The notes under the pieces are model-generated. The model was not told the DNA's origin. It saw only the letters and a list, made by a program, of their open reading frames with translations, and did no database searches. Shown piece after piece: positions 1 through 30,866 of a stretch of 48,315 bases of DNA. Numbering within the stretch: position 1 is the first letter of the stretch; each line of letters starts with the position of its first letter. The DNA is from a virus: the IMG/VR virus record IMGVR_UViG_3300025132_000062, positions 1 through 48,315 of that record, one strand, 5' to 3'. The position numbers were made by a program, and so were the translations under genes.

Positions 1-4
1 AAAG

Positions 5-205
5 ATGATCGTGTATAGTTCAGATGAAGTTAAAGATTGGCTTGATACTTTTGATGGTAATAGTGCAGAAGACCTAATAGCCTCGATAGTAAATAATGAA
101 ATAAAACATGAAGTCCTAGTCGATAGTATTTGTGCCTTTGCAAATGGCAGAACAAAACTAGCTGGGTATTGCTATGAAGAAATGTGGAAAAAGGGGGAGA
201 AATGA
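5..205 (+). CDS. Small hypothetical protein (66 aa)
   Basis: Acidic small protein with no motif I recognise. It begins 4 nt into the window, so its ribosome site and any longer start are out of view. Its stop overlaps the next start as ATGA (202-205), which suggests translational coupling and supports both being real. It is the first gene of a rightward cluster leading to the RAMP-like gene and the pentamer array. Function unknown. Confidence 0.6.
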   Translation: MIVYSSDEVKDWLDTFDGNSAEDLIASIVNNEIKHEVLVDSICAFANGRTKLAGYCYEEMWKKGEK

Positions 206-414
206 ATAAAACAAAAATGGAAATAGTATCAAATTTGGAAGGGGAAGATAATATTGTTTGGATAGATTTTAAAGGCAAAGAAATCAGAATAGAACAAGAT
301 AACTTTTATAACGAGGGAAAATTGATGATAACTGTTCACAACAAAGGTGAAGATTATCATGCAAAACTTTTAGTTGATAACAAAGAGAACACAAACGAGC
401 AATCAGCTAAATAA
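202..414 (+). CDS. Small hypothetical protein (70 aa)
   Basis: The start at 202 is chosen over an upstream ATG at 184 because GGGGGAG lies just 5' of it and it forms an ATGA overlap with the preceding stop. The product is charged, with alternating hydrophobic residues suggesting a small beta-rich domain. No family recognised. Its place upstream of the 204-aa gene suggests co-transcription. Confidence 0.6.
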   Translation: MNKTKMEIVSNLEGEDNIVWIDFKGKEIRIEQDNFYNEGKLMITVHNKGEDYHAKLLVDNKENTNEQSAK

Positions 415-464
415 TAACGGGTGTTATTGTTTGGTGTTGAGTGCATAATTTTCGAGAGGAATTT

Positions 465-1079
465 ATGAATAATAAAATACGCGAACAGAAGTTCGTAATC
501 AACCCACCTAATTTCAATCTTGTGAAATTGCAAGTCGAGGGTTTAACTCCTTTAATCCAAAATAAGATGAAGGAGGCTTTGATAAAAGAAATGGAAGAAG
601 TCCGTTCTGGTAAGGCTAATAAAGTCAATGCCAAAAGAACTGCTATCGATCCTAAAAAAGAGTATTTGAAATCTGCTTATACCCAGGATGATGGCTCGTT
701 TGGATTTCCTGCAAGTGCATTCAAACAATGTGCAGTTAGAGCAGGTAAGGCTTTAGGCTTGGCTATGACAGATGCAAGAACTTTGTTTTTTGTTTTGCCA
801 AATGCCCCGGATGGAGAGTGTGTTTCTATTAAGTCTAAGAAACCAGTATTGAGGAAAGACCCAGTTAATGTAAAGACTGGTAAAGACCTCAGATTTAGAC
901 CAGAGTTTAGAAACTGGTCAGCAGAACTCCTGGTAAAATATGACGCTGATAGAGTGACCATAGAGCAGATAGCTAATTTGCTTAATCATGGTGGTCAAAC
1001 CGTTGGTGTAGGTGAATGGCGTCCCGAAAGGAATGGCACATTTGGTATGTTTACAGTTGGTTCAAATAAGGCAGCATAA
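465..1079 (+). CDS. Conserved phage protein with RAMP/Cas7-like motifs (204 aa)
   Basis: The start at 465 is chosen because GAGAGGA precedes it; the upstream ATG at 441 has no site. Three blocks recall the RAMP (Cas5/6/7-type) RNA-binding fold: a first strand and turn at residues 18-34 (VEGLTPLIQNK), FGFPASAFKQCAVRAGK at 79-95, which resembles the GSSLKGALR element, and a Gly-rich C-terminal end at 179-198 (GVGEWRPERNGTFGMF) like the RAMP glycine-rich loop. From memory, proteins with a closing VGEWRP block occur in many phages without assigned function. The stop overlaps the next gene (TAATG). The gene sits directly upstream of the periodic array. The RAMP assignment is an inference from motifs; a single-stranded DNA or annealing protein is an alternative. 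Confidence 0.7.
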   Translation: MNNKIREQKFVINPPNFNLVKLQVEGLTPLIQNKMKEALIKEMEEVRSGKANKVNAKRTAIDPKKEYLKSAYTQDDGSFGFPASAFKQCAVRAGKALGLAMTDARTLFFVLPNAPDGECVSIKSKKPVLRKDPVNVKTGKDLRFRPEFRNWSAELLVKYDADRVTIEQIANLLNHGGQTVGVGEWRPERNGTFGMFTVGSNKAA

Positions 1080-1570
1080 TGAGAAATAGCAGAGTAAATT
1101 TAACTGCTGAACTCGTAAAAGTGCAACAAAGGTATGGGTCGGTTTCGGCTCATACCGTCTTACGAGAGGCAAAGAAGAAGTCTAGTCCTTTGCATAATTT
1201 CTTCGAGTGGAATGATAGTAAAGCTGCTCAAAAGTGGAGAATGCATGAGGCTAGAATGTTGATAGCAACGGCTAAGGTCTATGTTAATGAAGTTAGTCCT
1301 GAAACCGTAAGAGCTTTTGTAAGTTTAAGAACAGACGAGGGTAGACGATTTGTTGAAACTGCTGAGGCTTTAACTGATGACCAAATAGCTACTGAGTTAT
1401 TTGAAACACTTCTAAGAAGAATGAATAGCTTAGAGGAACAGTTAAGGTTGATGAACTTGTATAAAGGCTCATATAAAAATACACTAGATAACGCTAGAAA
1501 ACCTCTACAAAATAAATTAGTGCAAAAAAAAGGTCAAACTACAACGGATTTAACACCAAGATTAGTTTAG
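1079..1570 (+). CDS. Conserved helical phage protein, partner of the RAMP-like gene (163 aa)
   Basis: Coupled to the upstream gene by a TAATG overlap, so the two are probably made in fixed proportion. Largely helical and charged. Residues 36-62 contain the block SPLHNFFEWND followed by an Arg-rich helix; I recall similar LHSHFEW-type blocks in uncharacterised phage and prophage proteins. The N-terminal 35 residues could form a small helix-turn-helix (the protein starts by pairing a short basic helix with an alternating segment). The gene ends 11 nt before the stem-loop that precedes the array. Function unknown; a nucleic-acid-binding or small-subunit role beside the RAMP-like protein is an inference. 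Confidence 0.7.
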   Translation: MRNSRVNLTAELVKVQQRYGSVSAHTVLREAKKKSSPLHNFFEWNDSKAAQKWRMHEARMLIATAKVYVNEVSPETVRAFVSLRTDEGRRFVETAEALTDDQIATELFETLLRRMNSLEEQLRLMNLYKGSYKNTLDNARKPLQNKLVQKKGQTTTDLTPRLV

Positions 1571-1581
1571 TTGATCTTTTT

Positions 1582-1628
1582 AGTAGGTCGTGTGTCTTAC
1601 ATTTTACCCCCTCGATACATGACCTACT
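1582..1628 (+). other. 15-bp stem-loop with T-tract, leader of the pentamer array
   Basis: Arms 1582-1596 and 1614-1628 pair over 15 bp, of which 13 are Watson-Crick and two are G-U (1590/1620 and 1594/1616). The G-U positions keep pairing only in + strand RNA. The loop is 17 nt, pyrimidine-rich with a run of five C. The 3' side runs into TTTTTAATTTT and then directly into the first GGCAG. It could be a Rho-independent terminator for the two-gene operon, an attenuator, or a structured leader or processing site of an array transcript. Confidence 0.7.
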
Positions 1629-1638
1629 TTTTAATTTT

Positions 1639-1983
1639 GGCAGTCAAGGTGAGTTGGGGTTTGTTGGGTTCTGGTAAGCAAGGCAGTCCAGGTGGGGTTG
1701 GTTGCGTTCTGTCACGTTAAGGCAGTCGTGGTGAGTCTCGTCTTGTTAAGTTATGTCAAGTTATGGCAGTTGTGGTGGGTCTTGTTGAGGTATCGAGAGT
1801 TTCGTCCAGGCAGGTTAGGGCAGTTGTGGTTCGGCGCTGCGTGTTTCGTTCCGTTTTGTTATGGCAGTTGAGGTATGGCAAGTCACGATACGTTCTGGTG
1901 CTGTCCGTTTTGGTATGTCAGTCTAGGAGAGGTTTGTCAAGGTGTTGCAAGTTGAGTTATGGTCTGTTGGGGCAGTTGTGGTG
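1639..1983 (+). repeat. Periodic pentamer array, seven units plus a partial eighth
   Basis: Units start at 1639, 1682, 1721, 1765, 1819, 1863, 1917 and 1971 with GGCAG (GTCAG in the seventh). Unit lengths are 43, 39, 44, 54, 44, 54 and 54 nt. Cut into 5-mers from each start, 51 of 55 non-header pentamers end in G, 54 of 55 begin with T or G and 53 of 55 have T or C second; positions 3 and 4 are free. The header is GGCAG then TYNWG, usually followed by a pentamer starting GT. Each unit ends with a 4-nt remainder (TTAA, TTAT, TTAG, GTAT, TTGG; 3 nt in the first), which shifts the phase by one at every boundary. A 5-nt period does not fit coding sequence. The array runs in the direction of the upstream operon. 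It resembles neither a CRISPR nor a simple microsatellite. Confidence 0.88.
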
Positions 1984-2083
1984 TTATACAACAAAGATTA
2001 TAATTAGTTAGCTGGGGTCAATCCTACTCCCTATAGTGTATTTCATATTCGGGTTGGCTTCGGCTATTTTATGGAGAGATATT

Positions 2084-2278
2084 ATGAAAGGAAAAGTAAG
2101 TAAAAATTTTATATACGATAACGATAGAAGTCCAATAGAAAATTTTAACTTTTGGCTATCAGAGAATGAAAGTGAAAGGTTTTGGAATGAAGAAAAACCG
2201 TTATCTTATAAAGAGTCTGTTGATCTGTTTGAAAAACAGTATTGTGTCAAGATAGATGGAGTGAAGATTGATGAGTAG
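2084..2278 (+). CDS. Small hypothetical protein (64 aa)
   Basis: The start at 2084 is preferred over 2036 because GGAGAG lies 6 nt upstream. Acidic, Phe/Trp/Glu-rich and probably soluble; no family recognised. It follows the array by about 100 nt (1984-2083), in which I see no convincing promoter. It ends 4 nt before the convergent end of the small-terminase gene, leaving no room for a terminator between them. Confidence 0.55.
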   Translation: MKGKVSKNFIYDNDRSPIENFNFWLSENESERFWNEEKPLSYKESVDLFEKQYCVKIDGVKIDE

Positions 2279-2282
2279 TTTA

Positions 2283-2861
2283 TTAGCTGTTATCTTCGTT
2301 ATCATCCTGGCTGCTATTATCGATTTCATGAGTGGTGGCAGTAGTGGACACAAGTGAGTCATCATTTATTGGCAGATCTATGATTTCTTGACCCATAAGT
2401 TGCTTTAACCTATTTTCTATCTCTTCTCGTGACATCATATCGATCTTACCAAATCTAACTTCTTTTTTATCAACAACCAATCCACCTACTTTTAACAAAC
2501 TATTCTGGGCTGCGATTGCAGCATTATATGATCCAGAGTCCAGAGCTTTATCTCTTATGTCATACAAATCTTTAACTGCTCTATCATGATTTAATTCATA
2601 CTTCTTTCTAACTTCCGACATTAAGTATTTGTATTCCGACAACACATTATCGTTTTTCATAAGTTTGTATGCCGACTGTCTAGCATCTTTGTAGCCAGAT
2701 CTTTTTGCAGCTTCAACATAACTCATCTGTGGATTATTGACTATAGTCCAGACGAACACTTGTTGTCTGCGATTAAGTTTCTTATCTAGATCAAAATATT
2801 CGATAGGTGGTGTTTCTTCTTGATGAAGTATAGGCTCGAACTTGACTTCTGGTTTGGACAT
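2283..2861 (-). CDS. terS: Terminase small subunit
   Basis: 192 aa. Residues ~30-90 hold the DNA-binding helices of the Terminase_2/TerS type: an NRRQQVFVW opening, YVEAAKRSGYKDARQSAYKL and a following NDNV segment, a pattern typical of small-terminase helix-turn-helix domains. A long helix at ~90-135 would be the oligomerisation region, and the tail is acidic. It should recognise packaging DNA and load the large terminase. It lies far from terL (40.5 kb) in this window; both are on the minus strand. Confidence 0.75.
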   Translation of the reverse strand: MSKPEVKFEPILHQEETPPIEYFDLDKKLNRRQQVFVWTIVNNPQMSYVEAAKRSGYKDARQSAYKLMKNDNVLSEYKYLMSEVRKKYELNHDRAVKDLYDIRDKALDSGSYNAAIAAQNSLLKVGGLVVDKKEVRFGKIDMMSREEIENRLKQLMGQEIIDLPINDDSLVSTTATTHEIDNSSQDDNEDNS

Positions 2862-2919
2862 ATACTCGTAATTCTATGGTTTCTTATTGTAGAAGTAAAG
2901 TATGGTCTAGGAACTGAAT

Positions 2920-2948
2920 ATTATATGTGGCTATCTCTACTTATCTAA
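2920..2948 (-). promoter_or_regulatory. Candidate promoter for the small terminase gene
   Basis: On the minus strand a perfect TATAAT (2920-2925) has TTAGAT (2943-2948) 17 nt upstream, a poor -35. A second candidate, TTGACG (2986-2991) with GATAGT (2964-2969) at 16 nt, lies further upstream. Either would transcribe the gene starting at 2861. The region 2862-3122 holds no gene. Confidence 0.35.
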
Positions 2949-3029
2949 TAAGTATATTCCAAGACTATCACGCCAGATTATGTATCGTCAATATAAAAAA
3001 GCAATAAATATTAAATTAGTTTCTAATTC

Positions 3030-3113
3030 TCTGACAAAAATGAAAAAAATGTTTTTATTGTCAAAACCACTAAACATAAGACTTTCATACGACAAGAAAA
3101 GTCTGACAAAAAT
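3030..3113. repeat. Direct repeat and small hairpin between methyltransferase and terS
   Basis: TCTGACAAAAAT occurs at 3030-3041 and again at 3102-3113, 72 nt apart. Between them a 7-bp hairpin pairs AGACTTT (3079-3085) with AAAGTCT (3098-3104) around 12 nt. It lies just beyond the methyltransferase stop and upstream of the terS promoter candidates, so operator sites or a weak terminator are both possible. Confidence 0.35.
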
Positions 3114-3122
3114 AGACAATAA

Positions 3123-4526
3123 TCAAATATCCATATTTTTAAGGATATGTTCTATTACTGATACTGTGAATCCATTACCCAACATTTTGTATGCTTGGGT
3201 GTTGCTTACTGGCATTTCGTAGTCTTCTGGTATTGTTTGTAGTCTACGACACTCTCGAACTGTTAGCTTTCTCCAGGTTAAGTCCTCTTTTACTGCTACT
3301 GAATCTTTGCTGACCGTTGTTATAGCATTTGATTTATCGTCTTTTCTTAGCTCTAACATTTGTTTTGTTTGATTAGCTACCGAATTGCCATCTCGATCCA
3401 TTCTTTTACCATCACTATCATATGCTCTACCTCTAAGTGCACCACCAGACACAACCTTTGGTTCTCTGTTGCCACCACCCATACTATTAAGAGTAGGAGC
3501 TTTACCGTCTAGGCTATAGACTCTTTTAAGTATATCGTGTCCATTTACGTCACTAGCCACCCCAACTTGTACTGGTTTAGTTTGAATTTTTGGACTGTAG
3601 CTTGAAATAACCGTAGGTGATTTACCCTCAGAGGAATACACTCTTCTTCTCATTTCATTATCCTTTAATATTTCTCTTGGTATATCAAAAGCCTTTTTTG
3701 GTTTAGTTTCTACTTTGGGAACTGTGCCCTTACCAGCATGAGCGGTGACTGTAGGTGACTTACCATCTTCACTATAAACTCTTTTTAATATATCGTGACC
3801 TTTGATGTCATCTAAACTACCTACTTGTTTTGGTTTATTTCTCACACCAGTCATGCCATAAGTGTTCCAACCTTTGTAATCACGAGCTAATAATGTTGAG
3901 CCTTTTTTTATGTTTTCTTTTAGGGCTACACTTCCGTTATTCCCAACTAAATCTGTTTCTCCATCTGTTTCCAAAACATCTCTTAACACTATCCCCAAAT
4001 CATTTGGTTGTTCTATGTTTGGTATGTTTGTCCAATAAAGTCGCTGTCTGCTTTGTGCACTTAAAAGTGAACTATTTATTAAAATAGGCTCGATACGACC
4101 TCCCAATAAATCTTGACCACTTGAATACTCTGGATAACATTCTGAAACTTGTTGTGTGATGACTTCTTGAAACTCCTTTTTCATTCTGACATTTTCAAGT
4201 AAAAAGTATTTAGGTTTAATAGCTTTCAGTAATCTCACAAACTCAAAAAACAAAGCAGATCTAGGATCGTCAAATGCCAACTGTTTTCCTGAAAAACTAA
4301 ATCCCTGACAAGGGGAGCCAGCGACTATAAGAGTGACATCTTTGAAATCGTTTGGGTTTAACTTTGTTATATCTCCTACTTGAACAGTATTTGGAAAATT
4401 TGCTTGTGTGACTTGTATGCCGTATTTATCTATTTCACTAGCGAAATAAGTATCAACTTTAATGCCTAAATTTTTAAGTGCAATCTGGGTGCAACTCATC
4501 CCATCAAATAAACTTAATACCTTCAT
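3123..4526 (-). CDS. C5-cytosine DNA methyltransferase with repetitive recognition region
   Basis: 467 aa, longer than the usual 330-400 aa. Motif I is LSLFDGMS (4-11), motif IV GSPCQGFS (70-77) with catalytic Cys73, motif VI ENV (111-113), motif VIII QSRQRLYW (158-165), and motifs IX-X lie at 419-462 with LTVRECRRLQ and YKMLGNGF. The region between motifs VIII and IX (~200-410) carries four related segments around RVYSxDGKSPT at about 244-260, 291-306, 330-345 and 363-373. It would methylate host-type sites to protect phage DNA; no cognate restriction enzyme is nearby. It overlaps the upstream gene by ATGA. Confidence 0.92.
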   Translation of the reverse strand: MKVLSLFDGMSCTQIALKNLGIKVDTYFASEIDKYGIQVTQANFPNTVQVGDITKLNPNDFKDVTLIVAGSPCQGFSFSGKQLAFDDPRSALFFEFVRLLKAIKPKYFLLENVRMKKEFQEVITQQVSECYPEYSSGQDLLGGRIEPILINSSLLSAQSRQRLYWTNIPNIEQPNDLGIVLRDVLETDGETDLVGNNGSVALKENIKKGSTLLARDYKGWNTYGMTGVRNKPKQVGSLDDIKGHDILKRVYSEDGKSPTVTAHAGKGTVPKVETKPKKAFDIPREILKDNEMRRRVYSSEGKSPTVISSYSPKIQTKPVQVGVASDVNGHDILKRVYSLDGKAPTLNSMGGGNREPKVVSGGALRGRAYDSDGKRMDRDGNSVANQTKQMLELRKDDKSNAITTVSKDSVAVKEDLTWRKLTVRECRRLQTIPEDYEMPVSNTQAYKMLGNGFTVSVIEHILKNMDI

Positions 4527-4792
4527 TCAAAATCTGGCATACTTTCATAAAGTGCAGAATAAATTTCTTGTTCAGAGTAGCCAGAAATAATTTGATCTAA
4601 TGTGTTCAAAGATAAATTAATGTCTTTTTGTTCATGTATAAGTCTAGAAAAACAATAGCTAATACACCAAACTACAGTATCTTGGGGCGGCACACCTCTA
4701 ATATTATTTTCAGCAATCAAACCTTCTAACGATTTAGCCGTTTCTTTTGGATCTGCATCTGGTCTGTACTCTGACATCTCTATGACTTCCAT
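4523..4792 (-). CDS. Hypothetical protein upstream of the methyltransferase (89 aa)
   Basis: Overlaps the methyltransferase start by 4 nt (ATGA), so the two are probably translated together. A second start at 4777 is also possible (GGAAG precedes it). Acidic and helical, with a Cys/Trp-containing central helix. No family recognised. A fixed partner or antirestriction-type role is only a guess from position. Confidence 0.65.
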   Translation of the reverse strand: MEVIEMSEYRPDADPKETAKSLEGLIAENNIRGVPPQDTVVWCISYCFSRLIHEQKDINLSLNTLDQIISGYSEQEIYSALYESMPDFE

Positions 4793-4870
4793 AAATTAAA
4801 TTTAACATAAATAAAAATAATTTACTATAAGCGAATTGCTAAGTTATATTATGTGTGCTATTTATAGAAG

Positions 4871-4899
4871 CAGAGGGTTATGTTGCTAAGGTCCCTCTG
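4871..4899. other. 7-bp inverted repeat in a 177-nt gap
   Basis: CAGAGGG (4871-4877) pairs perfectly with CCCTCTG (4893-4899) around a 15-nt loop. It lies in the gap 4793-4969 between two minus-strand genes. TTTACT (4821-4826) and TATATT (4845-4850), 18 nt apart on the + strand, could be a weak promoter in front of it. No U-tract follows on either strand. Confidence 0.3.
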
Positions 4900-4969
4900 A
4901 TACCTAAGTCCGATCAAGACTTCTATTCAAAGTGTATGGAGAATTCTATACAGAATAGGCAACAAAAAA

Positions 4970-5203
4970 TTAAATACCGTAGTCTTCTGGATTTTCACCA
5001 AAAGCAGCTAACAAGATACTGCATTCACTAGATCTTTCTACGGCATTTAAATCAATACCAGTAGATTTTTTTAGATTTTCAGCATACCTAGATGTTAACT
5101 CCTCTGAAGTATCGCATCCAAACTTATAAGCATCATCAAACGCCTTTTGTCGTGCGCCATCCTCTACAATATTATCGTGATATTCTCTCCACATTCTAGA
5201 CAT
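4970..5203 (-). CDS. Small hypothetical protein (77 aa)
   Basis: Preceded by AAGGA about 6 nt before the start on the minus strand. Acidic, helical, one Cys pair, no recognised family. It is the first gene of a leftward unit whose TATAAT (5247-5252, minus) overlaps the rightward promoter of the next operon, so the two units may be co-regulated. Confidence 0.65.
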   Translation of the reverse strand: MSRMWREYHDNIVEDGARQKAFDDAYKFGCDTSEELTSRYAENLKKSTGIDLNAVERSSECSILLAAFGENPEDYGI

Positions 5204-6498: not shown

Positions 6499-6610
6499 AA
6501 AGAACATATTATTAGTTACTACATTTTCATTATTTATATTTGCCGTAATCCTAAGCAAATATTTTTTATGGGGATGCATAATAATTTGTGGAGATTGGTA
6601 TGATGAATAG
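6488..6610 (+). CDS. Tiny membrane protein (40 aa)
   Basis: Begins 11 nt inside the exonuclease end. A Lys-rich start (MKNKK) is followed by one hydrophobic helix (about residues 7-35) with two Cys. The frame closes 8 nt before the next gene. It has no strong ribosome site of its own and would depend on reinitiation. Could be a chance frame. Confidence 0.45.
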   Translation: MKNKKNILLVTTFSLFIFAVILSKYFLWGCIIICGDWYDE

Positions 6611-6618
6611 GAGGAAAT

Positions 6619-6930
6619 ATGTCGATTGATAAAATAACCCCAGAACAATGGGACGAAGCAAATAAAATTATAAAAAAAATAGGTCCAGGAGACTCTGAAA
6701 ACACTAATGAACAAGATATGGTAAATAAACCACCACATTATAATCAAGGGACTTTAGAGGCTATTGAGTATATAAAACAACAACTAGGACCATTAGGTTA
6801 TAGATCGTATTTAGAAGGAACAGCAATAAAATATTTACATAGGTTTAAATACAAAACATCTAACATACAAGATTTGGAAAAATGCGTTTGGTATATTAGA
6901 AGATTAATTAAAGAATTAGAAAATATGTAG
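6619..6930 (+). CDS. DUF3310 protein (SaV-like, so-called nucleotide kinase)
   Basis: 103 aa, with strong GGAGG ribosome site. After a variable N terminus, VNKPPHYNQG (35-44), the IEYIKQQLG helix, GTAIKYLHRFKYK (~67-79) and a closing helix DLEKCVWYIRRLI match DUF3310. Family members are small phage proteins often labelled nucleotide kinases without a proven reaction. Probably acts in phage nucleotide or replication metabolism; co-transcribed with the exonuclease. Confidence 0.85.
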   Translation: MSIDKITPEQWDEANKIIKKIGPGDSENTNEQDMVNKPPHYNQGTLEAIEYIKQQLGPLGYRSYLEGTAIKYLHRFKYKTSNIQDLEKCVWYIRRLIKELENM

Positions 6931-20739: not shown

Positions 20740-22602
20740 TTATCTTCTGCCGTCTGTTCTAAGGTCTAATCTAGTTGCACCTAATCTCCATCCTATATCT
20801 AAATTTCCTACATTTCCATCATTAGATGCTACCCTTAAAACAGCTTGTCTACCTCTTCCTCTAATAAAATTCTGTTGTGTAGTAGGGGTTACATTAGAGG
20901 TAGCTACTGTTGATAATGAGTCTCCTGGAAAATTTCTTACTTTGGTTACTAAGTTAAGATTACCAGTATTTGTTAAGAATTTAATATCTGGTATCAATTT
21001 TTTTAAAAATGTAAAACTATCACCATCACCTAAATCGAAGTCTGAAGATTCAATAAAGACATTTGTCATTTCACTGCCATCATCATTAAAACCAAATTCA
21101 TGTTCAAACAAACTATTACTACCTACTGCTTGAGGAAATGGCTCTACACCAGAGTCTAACCAAACGGTTCTTACTAATTCTCCATAATACCAAACTTGTT
21201 CTTCGTAGTTATAAATCACATATCTATCTATTTCTTGTGAGTTTTCAGATGGATAAAACCAACCTATTTCGTTTTCTTTATTGTTTGTAAAAGCAGATAC
21301 TTTATATGCTTGACTACTATTAAAATTAGAAAATACAAAATTTAACACACTACAAGGCAGTTTTTGTACTGTACCGTTGTATACATAAAAATTATCATAA
21401 GACATGAAAAACACACCTTGAGGAGCAGTAACAGCTGCATTAGGTCCTACTAAGCCAGTAGCCTCATTTATTAGGTTTACTGAAAAGGTAAAAGGAGGTC
21501 CAGTAAATTGCATACTATAAACAGAGGTGTCTGTAAAAATAACTATTTCTTGTCGTGATTTGACTGCACCTACAATGGTAGACCCAGACGAAAGTCTTAA
21601 CGATCCAGCAGTATTTGTAATTTTTGGTTCAAATTCTAATTCGTTTTCTTGGTCGGAAAAAGCTATAAACATAGGATCTATCGACCCAGTTCTTGCAGTA
21701 CCAGCAGCATTAAGTTGGTCAGCACCCAAAACTACAAGATGTCTGTCTATTTCAGATGTTATTACTTGTAATCCCTTGGTTGGGACTAGATTAGCGTTTG
21801 TTATACCAGAAAGTTCTACTGCTCTAGTGCTTAATCCTCCACTTTCTATCCATCTAAATATACCACCAGCTCTAGCATTAATAATTAAATTTTCACCAAA
21901 ATTGTCATGTGACCATAATCTAAGTTGGTTTGTCTCTGATAAAGCTGCTGTCGTACCCCAAGTCCCATCACCCCATGCATTTGCACCCCAACCAGTAGAT
22001 GAAACATAAAAATCTAAACCTACATTTATTTGATAGGCACCTACCACACTAGAACCACCATTACCACTATCAGAAGCATTAGCAGTTACTGTTGAGCCAG
22101 ATGTATCTTTAGCTGTAATTTTGTATGAATTTGCATTTACTATGCTATCTATTTGATACTCTTGATTTAAAACGGCAGCAACTACATTACCACCTAAAGA
22201 GGAAGCTCCACTAAAAGTTACAAAATCGTTTTTTACTGCACCATGTGCGGTATCTGATACTGTTATCTCAGAAGAACCATTTGATGCACTAAATGTCACA
22301 TCACCAGCAGAAGTTGTTGATCTTATCGGTGTAACATCATTTAAAGATGTGCCTTCTTTTATTAAATATTTTTGATGTGTTCCTATACCCAAATATTTAG
22401 TGCCGTCTAATGCTATCCAATTATGCAAAGCTCTAGCAGTACCAGTTATCGTTGAGCTTGTAGTTTTTCTCCAACCACCAAATTTTTCTGGTCTACCAGA
22501 CCTAAATCTAATTAAATTACAATCAAACCAACCTCCCTCGTTATCGTAGGCAGTACCCTCTCTATTGATTCCTGGTCTAAATTGTAGTTTTTGTAACGGC
22601 AT
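20740..22602 (-). CDS. P22 gp10-like DNA-stabilisation / tail hub protein
   Basis: 620 aa, almost all beta. It opens MPLQKLQFRPGINREGT then GGWFDCNLIRFRSGRPEKFGGW, a signature I associate with gp10-like proteins of podoviruses. Repeats around residues 240-460 (LVVLGAD, IFTDTSVYSM, FFMSYDNFYVY) suggest a beta-propeller. It would cap the portal and gp4-like ring and join the tail. Overlaps the upstream gene by 26 nt. Tail tubular protein B (T7 gp12-like) is an alternative name for the same position. Confidence 0.65.
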   Translation of the reverse strand: MPLQKLQFRPGINREGTAYDNEGGWFDCNLIRFRSGRPEKFGGWRKTTSSTITGTARALHNWIALDGTKYLGIGTHQKYLIKEGTSLNDVTPIRSTTSAGDVTFSASNGSSEITVSDTAHGAVKNDFVTFSGASSLGGNVVAAVLNQEYQIDSIVNANSYKITAKDTSGSTVTANASDSGNGGSSVVGAYQINVGLDFYVSSTGWGANAWGDGTWGTTAALSETNQLRLWSHDNFGENLIINARAGGIFRWIESGGLSTRAVELSGITNANLVPTKGLQVITSEIDRHLVVLGADQLNAAGTARTGSIDPMFIAFSDQENELEFEPKITNTAGSLRLSSGSTIVGAVKSRQEIVIFTDTSVYSMQFTGPPFTFSVNLINEATGLVGPNAAVTAPQGVFFMSYDNFYVYNGTVQKLPCSVLNFVFSNFNSSQAYKVSAFTNNKENEIGWFYPSENSQEIDRYVIYNYEEQVWYYGELVRTVWLDSGVEPFPQAVGSNSLFEHEFGFNDDGSEMTNVFIESSDFDLGDGDSFTFLKKLIPDIKFLTNTGNLNLVTKVRNFPGDSLSTVATSNVTPTTQQNFIRGRGRQAVLRVASNDGNVGNLDIGWRLGATRLDLRTDGRR

Positions 22603-23014
22603 TTTTTATCTCATCTACTATTGTAATAGATCTTCTCAAACTTTTTAAAGCATCTATATCTTCTAAATATTCTACCTTTTTCTGATATTTATTTCCTATT
22701 TTATAGTTAGCTACAAATTCAACAATATTATCTGGTAAAAAAACGAAAGCAAATATGTCTACTTCTGCTGAACTATAATTTTTTTTTATTTTATTTACTT
22801 TTTTCCTTATATCCCACCTAACATATGTAGAACTATGGTGTTTAAAAGGTGATTCTGTTGTTTTAACTTGTATTTTATAAGATTCAGAGGACGATTGAGC
22901 TAGAAAATCATATCTAGAACTTGGTGATGCTTCAAAGACTTCTTCAAAGTGTCTGATTAAAAAACTAGCAGCAAGGTATTCTCCTGCTCTGCCTATTCTT
23001 TGAGTAAAAGCCAT
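22577..23014 (-). CDS. PD-(D/E)XK endonuclease-like protein
   Basis: 145 aa from the start at 23014, which has GGAG 6 nt upstream; ATG 23026 has none. GRAGEYLAASFLIRH (8-22), YDFLA with D36 (35-39) and YKIQVKTT (46-53, Q49 and K51) form the fold seen in group I-intron-type and DUF4365-like endonucleases. The acidic residue before Lys is replaced by Gln, as in some active families. It sits among tail genes, where an inserted mobile nuclease or a DNA-processing role are both possible. Confidence 0.6.
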   Translation of the reverse strand: MAFTQRIGRAGEYLAASFLIRHFEEVFEASPSSRYDFLAQSSSESYKIQVKTTESPFKHHSSTYVRWDIRKKVNKIKKNYSSAEVDIFAFVFLPDNIVEFVANYKIGNKYQKKVEYLEDIDALKSLRRSITIVDEIKNAVTKTTI

Positions 23015-30593: not shown

Positions 30594-30866
30594 TTATTTT
30601 TTAAATTTTTGTCTTCTTCTGTTTGCATTACCTGCAATTATGCCACCCTTAGATTTTTTCATGACTTTGCCGCCTTTAGACTTCTTCATCATCATTCCGC
30701 CCTTAGACTTTTTCATCATCATGCCACCTTTGGATTTCTTCATCATCATGCCACCTTTAGACTTCTTCATGACTTTTCCACCTTTGGATTTCTTCATGAC
30801 TTTACCGCCTTTAGATTTCTTCATCATGCTACTGTTTTTTGATTTTTTCTTGTAATGTCCTGGCAT
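30594..30866 (-). CDS. Polybasic tandem-repeat protein (KKSKGG, 90 aa)
   Basis: Seven KKSKGG blocks in tandem with a 9-residue period (variants KV or MM before MKKSKGG) fill residues ~14-75, corresponding to 27-bp repeats in DNA. N terminus MPGHYKKKSK and C terminus RRRQKFKK are also basic. The strong positive charge suggests DNA condensation inside the capsid or another nucleic-acid contact. The GG-K/M spacing matches the Gly-Gly motif found in other virion proteins here. Confidence 0.75.
   Translation of the reverse strand: MPGHYKKKSKNSSMMKKSKGGKVMKKSKGGKVMKKSKGGMMMKKSKGGMMMKKSKGGMMMKKSKGGKVMKKSKGGIIAGNANRRRQKFKK

Follow-up and report, generated by a model that had tools for sequence, protein, structure and literature searches.

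A probable VIPR locus with GGCA-punctuated guides in the genome of a marine phage

The 48,315-nucleotide virus record IMGVR_UViG_3300025132_000062 from IMG/VR, analysed here in full (the window), contains a stretch in which G recurs at every fifth base while the other letters vary, raising the question of what such an array is for. The initial annotation, made from the letters alone, proposed a non-coding array that provides a guide-like nucleic acid to a protein with RAMP/Cas7-like motifs encoded just upstream. We conclude, with a probability of about 0.9, that positions 465–1984, comprising a vipr gene, a candidate vap gene and an array of seven guides, are a Viral Interference Programmable Repeat (VIPR) locus of a marine phage. 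A preprint from 2026 introduced VIPR, an RNA-guided system that is possibly older than CRISPR and apparently used by phages to silence competitors; it consists of Vipr RAMP proteins, vap genes and vrRNAs built of GGY/NN tandem repeats (PMC13142463). According to the main text of that preprint, the NN pairs recognise DNA with one base skipped, and the system was worked out experimentally in Escherichia phage SUSP1 and a Pseudomonas prophage (P. fulva type II) (PMC13142463). The published guide is an RNA read at its variable positions, which supports the role first proposed for the window array (PMC13142463).

The summed autocorrelation of G at lags 5, 10 and 15 was 0.868, and none of 2,000 dinucleotide-preserving shuffles was as high (mean −0.010, s.d. 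0.093, maximum 0.293; z 9.5). Read naively in steps of five from every GGCAG, the array yields 64 pentamers, 56 of which end in G; the initial annotation counted 51 of 55. The discrepancy is one of frame bookkeeping: one GGCAG, at 1809, belongs to the ordinary pentamers within a unit, and at 1917 the header sequence has become GTCA by decay. When tetramers are permitted, the segmentation comprises 63 pentamers, of which 90% have G first, 98% G or T second and 97% C or T third, together with GGCA tetramers. The grammar is a series of G-[G/T]-[C/T]-N-N (GKYNN) pentamers in which GGCA resets the phase between groups, which explains why the first reading had to be restarted at each GGCAG. GTY accounts for approximately 60% of the pentamers and GGY for approximately 38%. 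Rather than one base in every five being read, as first suggested, three of five (G-K-Y) form a framework and two (NN) are informative. The seven guides contain 7, 7, 8, 10, 8, 10 and 10 pentamers. The array, originally placed at 1639–1983, is real at 1639–1983/4 on the + strand and is non-coding: all six frames hold stops in 24 of 25 homologous arrays, and long frames are not common to them. A decayed tandem repeat was also rejected, since the spacing is preserved, the contents are unrelated and common units retain their text. An Rfam scan of window positions 1–5000 returned no convincing family.

The gene upstream of the array ties it to VIPR. A profile of 36 homologues of the 465–1079 protein matched PDB entry 36pp, the SUSP1 Vipr protein, in hmmsearch (E = 4.1e-13), as did the single sequence in phmmer (E = 3e-10). 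The best Foldseek matches of its AlphaFold2 (AF2) model (pLDDT 86.8) were Csm3/Cas7 subunits of type III-A and type VII complexes (E = 2.4e-6), and a glycine-rich loop, GG..GVGEWRP (GGxxxGVGEWRP), is conserved in its family. Judged by sequence and predicted fold, the product is Vipr, a minimal Cas7/Csm3-type RAMP with the RRM core and G-loop characteristic of VIPR, in agreement with the RAMP/Cas7-like motifs first noticed. For the adjacent vap gene (vap1–6 in VIPR systems), a further VIPR trait, the candidate is P0002, homologues of which lie directly 3′ of vipr in most loci. The AF2 model of P0002 (pLDDT 77.7) is mainly helical, and fold comparison gave no confident match. The coordinates of these features are collected in Table 1. 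The hairpin preceding the array appears terminator- or attenuator-like from its sequence; comparable hairpins are present in L002, L004, L006 and L010 and absent from other members, being confined to the closest relatives of the window. The hairpin that follows the array is a possible transcript end or tail. Either hairpin might serve as a terminator, an attenuator or a processing signal. Both have C-rich loops, and the arrays of L006 and L010 are similarly flanked.

Table 1. Features of the VIPR locus in the window, with the NN pairs of each guide.
Feature	Position	Strand	Description
vipr homologue (P0001, phrog_4652)	465..1079	+	204-aa RAMP protein; profile, fold, loop motif
vap candidate (P0002, phrog_15946)	1079..1570	+	163-aa protein; 1-base overlap with vipr stop
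15-bp hairpin between vap and array	1582..1628	+	C-rich loop, then T run; minimum free energy −21.8 kcal/mol, z −6.3
vrRNA-type guide array	1639..1984	+	GGCA headers and GKYNN pentamers; autocorrelation, segmentation
U1	1643..1681	+	Header GGCA 1639–1642; NN = AA GA GG TT GG CT AA, then 4-nt GCAA remnant
U2	1686..1720	+	Header 1682–1685; NN = CA GG TG GC CT AC AA
U3	1725..1764	+	Header 1721–1724; NN = GT GA TC TT AA AT AA AT
U4	1769..1818	+	Header 1765–1768; NN = GT GG TT GA AT GA TC CA AG AG
U5	1823..1862	+	Header 1819–1822; NN = GT TC GC GT TC CC TT AT
U6	1867..1916	+	Header 1863–1866; NN = GA AT AA AC AC CT GC CC TT AT
U7	1921..1970	+	Header decayed to GTCA, 1917–1920; NN = TA GA TT AA GT AA GA AT CT GG
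Terminal GGCA header and two pentamers	1971..1984	+	n guides, n+1 headers
16-bp hairpin 3′ of array	2009..2066	+	Minimum free energy −22.2 kcal/mol, z −4.4

Conservation of the arrangement was assessed in homologous loci. An IMG/VR search with P0001 returned 31 close homologues, nearly all of which, where enough downstream sequence was available, carry an array at the same place with other contents. Distant homologues and annotated phages also have arrays, among them Felixounavirus Andreotti, mycobacteriophage Brocalys, Gordonia phage Pipp and cyanophage Cy-LDV1. Altogether, a period of 5 with unrelated contents was seen in about 100 homologous loci; the initial annotation was correct that the period is kept while the content varies, and had named this very outcome beforehand as support for its proposal. 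In the distant arrays GGCNN or GGTNN predominates. Successive headers are 5n+4 bases apart (4 mod 5) in 125 of the 181 intervals of the window clade and in 564 of the 834 of distant loci. Most of the groups examined have GGCA headers; Felixounavirus lacks them, its arrays forming separate tracts followed by a recurring sequence, as in published SUSP1 (PMC13142463). Arrays start with a header, often directly after the vap stop codon, and most close with a header and one or two pentamers. Some annotations overlap these features: the Pipp array (L032, MN234179.1; 6578–6811) lies inside annotated gene 43 (6581–6850), which is probably a mis-annotated open reading frame (ORF), and one of five tracts between 5687 and 7423 in Andreotti (L035) is marked merely repeat_region. 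The arrays of Brocalys (L034; 5631–5876), Cy-LDV1 (L033; 6611–6804 and 7403–7562) and Andreotti are of the VIPR type, and no annotation names them so.

Most units in relatives contain 9–12 pentamers, and individual units are common to several phages, in differing order. Unit U2 is identical in L002 and near-identical in L010. In some common units the NN string is kept exactly while the framework drifts between C and T and between G and T, as in U7, the NN string of which is identical across 11 contigs. Across the window clade as a whole, NN positions change approximately as often as K and Y, and exchanges between C and T (position 3) and between G and T (position 2) are the commonest; the comparison is restricted to this clade because substitution rates over all loci are confounded by unrelated GGC-type units.

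The published target code was examined on relatives, using 907 guides of at least nine pentamers against 4.9 Mb (both strands) of non-array phage sequence, with skips of 0–3. At E<1e-3, a single guide, of low complexity, matched with a skip of 0, four matched with a skip of 1 and none with a skip of 2 or 3. In all four 1-nt-skip matches the skipped base falls at the codon wobble position. Three of them fall within the vipr gene of a related phage (L107 to L088, 23/26; L197 to L196, 19/20; L224 to L215 and L216, 19/20) and the fourth in another phage gene. In a search of 138 window-clade guides over 3.3 Mb of related phage sequence (both strands), a 1-nt skip brought 16 guides to E<0.1, compared with 4, 7 and 11 under the remaining skips and 4.3 for guides of shuffled order. 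The best of these (L071 to L323) matches at 19/20 in the wobble register; a match of guide L060 to L148/L149 (17/20) is at chance level and in a different gene from the L071 target. These out-of-sample sequence matches support the published 1-nt-skip code, under which the target search first proposed, with a wildcard at every fifth base, would fail, because in the target each NN is followed by a single skipped base, giving a period of 3. Matches running through a GGCA header into the next guide were not consistent among the four best targets, and each GGCA-bounded unit therefore looks like one guide.

The composition of the NN pairs carries a related signal. In the window clade it resembles codon positions 1–2 of the phages' own genes, with a Kullback–Leibler (KL) divergence of 0.070 bits, as against 0.170 for the reverse complement (antisense) and 0.38–0.47 for other registers; a mixture of sense and antisense gives 0.048 bits. 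High-GC distant arrays fit codon positions 1–2 less well (KL 0.112 antisense, 0.203 sense). This likeness requires no target, and framework constraints on adjoining letters could contribute to it. Because the guides are codon-like, even random matches favour the wobble register, and register alone is weak evidence for any one match.

Two explanations that do without targets can be weighed at this point. The array could be a DNA element to which a phage DNA-binding protein attaches in 5-bp steps, for example a recombination hotspot or a site of replication or packaging, the unit shuffling being ordinary repeat recombination. Units are indeed exchanged and deleted between phages, a terminase small-subunit-like gene adjoins at 2283–2861 and the phage encodes a Sak4-like annealing protein. 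However, across phages as unrelated as marine phages, mycobacteriophages, the Gordonia phage and Felixounavirus the array follows vipr rather than a terminase or recombinase gene, and codon-like NN text with gapped matches to rival genes is not expected of a binding site. We consider this explanation very unlikely, and GT-rich recombination or loading sites, initially offered as the main alternative, are not supported. A regulatory or decoy RNA, bound by a TRAP-like or another RNA-binding protein with a period of 5 and with NN pairs that have no targets, appears less likely still. TRAP binds G-containing triplets spaced approximately 5 nt apart on unstructured RNA, and the fixed 5-nt step and conserved G resemble its (G/U)AG-NN sites; the array RNA is likewise unstructured, its units folding no better than shuffles. 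TRAP is nevertheless an unrelated protein whose sites are not known to have variable information positions, whereas the gene adjoining the array encodes a RAMP, NN strings stay exact in some common units while the framework drifts, and NN resembles codon positions 1–2. Transcription also speaks against a DNA element, since the vrRNAs of SUSP1 are transcribed and co-purify with Vipr (PMC13142463).

Several observations weigh against assigning the window locus to VIPR. Four of its guides have 7 or 8 NN pairs, below the 9–16 repeats of published guides; GTY is commoner than GGY in its framework; and its units abut through GGCA, with no structured tail after each guide (PMC13142463). In the preprint, the constant structured 3′ tail of each vrRNA is a trait of type II and not of all types, and a related consensus, staggered arrays and other array forms are also reported (PMC13142463); we count the GTY variant as such a related consensus. 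A promoter search gave nothing above background. Finally, none of the window guides has a target that is statistically secure. When IMG/VR was scanned for exact gapped matches, U7 (18 bases) gave one hit, U6 (18 bases) one hit and the first eight NN of U4 (16 bases) 13 contigs in four independent clusters; the U6 and U7 results are at chance level. U4 is thus exact for eight of its ten NN, the last two being mismatched, and its largest cluster is one of four, of which several are expected by chance.

That largest U4 cluster (16/16 bases) comprises seven contigs, L278, L279, L280, L282, L286, L287 and L289. The L278-family phage, a marine relative, has a structural module collinear to that of the window, with main portal segments 46–57% identical. 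The U4 site lies in a short ORF in the wobble register, and two variants of the family, 88% identical in DNA, differ within the site at skip bases only. The L278-family gene is a candidate target on these sequence grounds and only a candidate, because several chance clusters are expected; the kinship of the matched phage speaks for it. U4 had no match in the annotated relatives HTVC027P, HTVC023P, 023Pt_psg01, DSL-LC04 and CRP-901. Other matches were rejected. U7 occurs in the ABC-F ATPase genes of two Cyclobacteriaceae (L276 820–848 and L277 377–405; 20/20, wobble), for which approximately 0.5 chance matches are expected in 257 Gb; as the Shine-Dalgarno-like starts of the window phage genes do not suggest a Bacteroidetes host, it was set aside. 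Matches of U7 to L115 (a T4-like tail-fibre gene) and of U6 to L275 are at chance level, in the wrong register or GC.

The missing secure foreign target leaves room for a VIPR system whose guides pair either with RNA or with the genome of the phage itself and regulate its genes, a reading that nothing supports directly. The target searches covered all 48 kb of the window, in which its own guides had no significant match, secure matches lie in other phages, and 37 of 147 window-clade guides are clearly sense-like, as against 4 that are antisense-like. Guide text of the coding strand cannot pair with mRNA, which argues for DNA. We regard self-directed or RNA-directed pairing as very improbable.

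The locus shares with the SUSP1 and P. fulva type II systems a phage-encoded RAMP Vipr, a neighbouring accessory gene and intergenic tandem pentamers of the GGY/NN kind. Targets read with a 1-nt skip on the wobble base, in other phages and other VIPR systems, are indicated by the sequence matches of relatives with the same array grammar, and for the window's own guides by NN composition and one candidate. It differs in the relaxed G[G/T]Y framework, in its marine phage and in guides joined head to tail by a GGCA tetramer, where the published vrRNAs are approximately 100 nt long and each have a structured tail. This kind of system is already published; the main text of the preprint mentions neither the relaxed GTY/GGY framework nor punctuation by GGCA, a word that does not occur in it (PMC13142463). 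With class 1 CRISPR-Cas (Cas7/Csm3 filaments) the locus has in common the RAMP fold, an array of swappable units, a presumed oligomer on a guide RNA and presumed periodic interruption of pairing. In contrast, the step is 5 rather than 6, repeat and guide are interleaved at the level of single bases, and no cas1/cas2, palindromic repeats or separate Cas5/Cas6 were found among the window genes examined. CRISPR-Cas, with its cas genes and its spacers set apart by identical repeats of fixed length, does not fit, given that only a 4-nt GGCA separates the units and that no CRISPR protein family occurs among the scanned genes.

A working model can be outlined for the VIPR locus. The array would probably be transcribed as RNA from the + strand, and several Vipr subunits, perhaps one per pentamer, would coat each guide, gripping GKY and exposing NN. 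The exposed pairs would read double-stranded DNA as NN-skip-NN-skip; with the skipped base mostly on the wobble position, synonymous escape mutations in the target would be of no help. Binding may silence genes of competing phages, their vipr genes included. GGCA tetramers would mark guide boundaries and might be sites of processing, and units behave as cassettes that phages acquire, drop and exchange. Tentatively, and with less than even confidence, we suggest that GGCA-punctuated, tail-less arrays with a GTY/GGY framework represent a separate form in which VIPR guides are stored and cut, and that here a register-shifting 4-nt mark might start and stop Vipr filaments without a structured tail or ribozyme, guides of 7 NN (14 read bases) might work, and marine phages might target related phages of the same community.

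Terminase and capsid sequences place the window phage near Pelagibacter phages HTVC027P and HTVC023P (TerL identity 58.8% and 57.4%, respectively; capsid approximately 67%) and phage DSL-LC04. Among 18 records tested, vipr occurs only in the very close G001 and in DSL-LC04, so the VIPR system is accessory. The DSL-LC04 homologue (OR003939.1, L332) lies at 22453–22965 on the minus strand (E = 5.9e-11). Elsewhere in the window, 3123–4526 on the minus strand encodes a C5 cytosine methyltransferase with several copies of an RVYSxDGKSPTV-like motif between its catalytic parts, which may be repeated target-recognition modules. At 30640–30827, a 27-bp tandem repeat lies in a short lysine/glycine-rich gene with both strands open; a protein similar to its product adjoins the portal gene of L286 (597–932).

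The locus was picked up blind, from its letter pattern alone, in marine phages. The test of composition against codon positions 1–2 needs no target database and is applicable to any array. In the locus family, guides are seen to be aimed at the vipr genes of rivals, and a plain GGCA tetramer bounds them.
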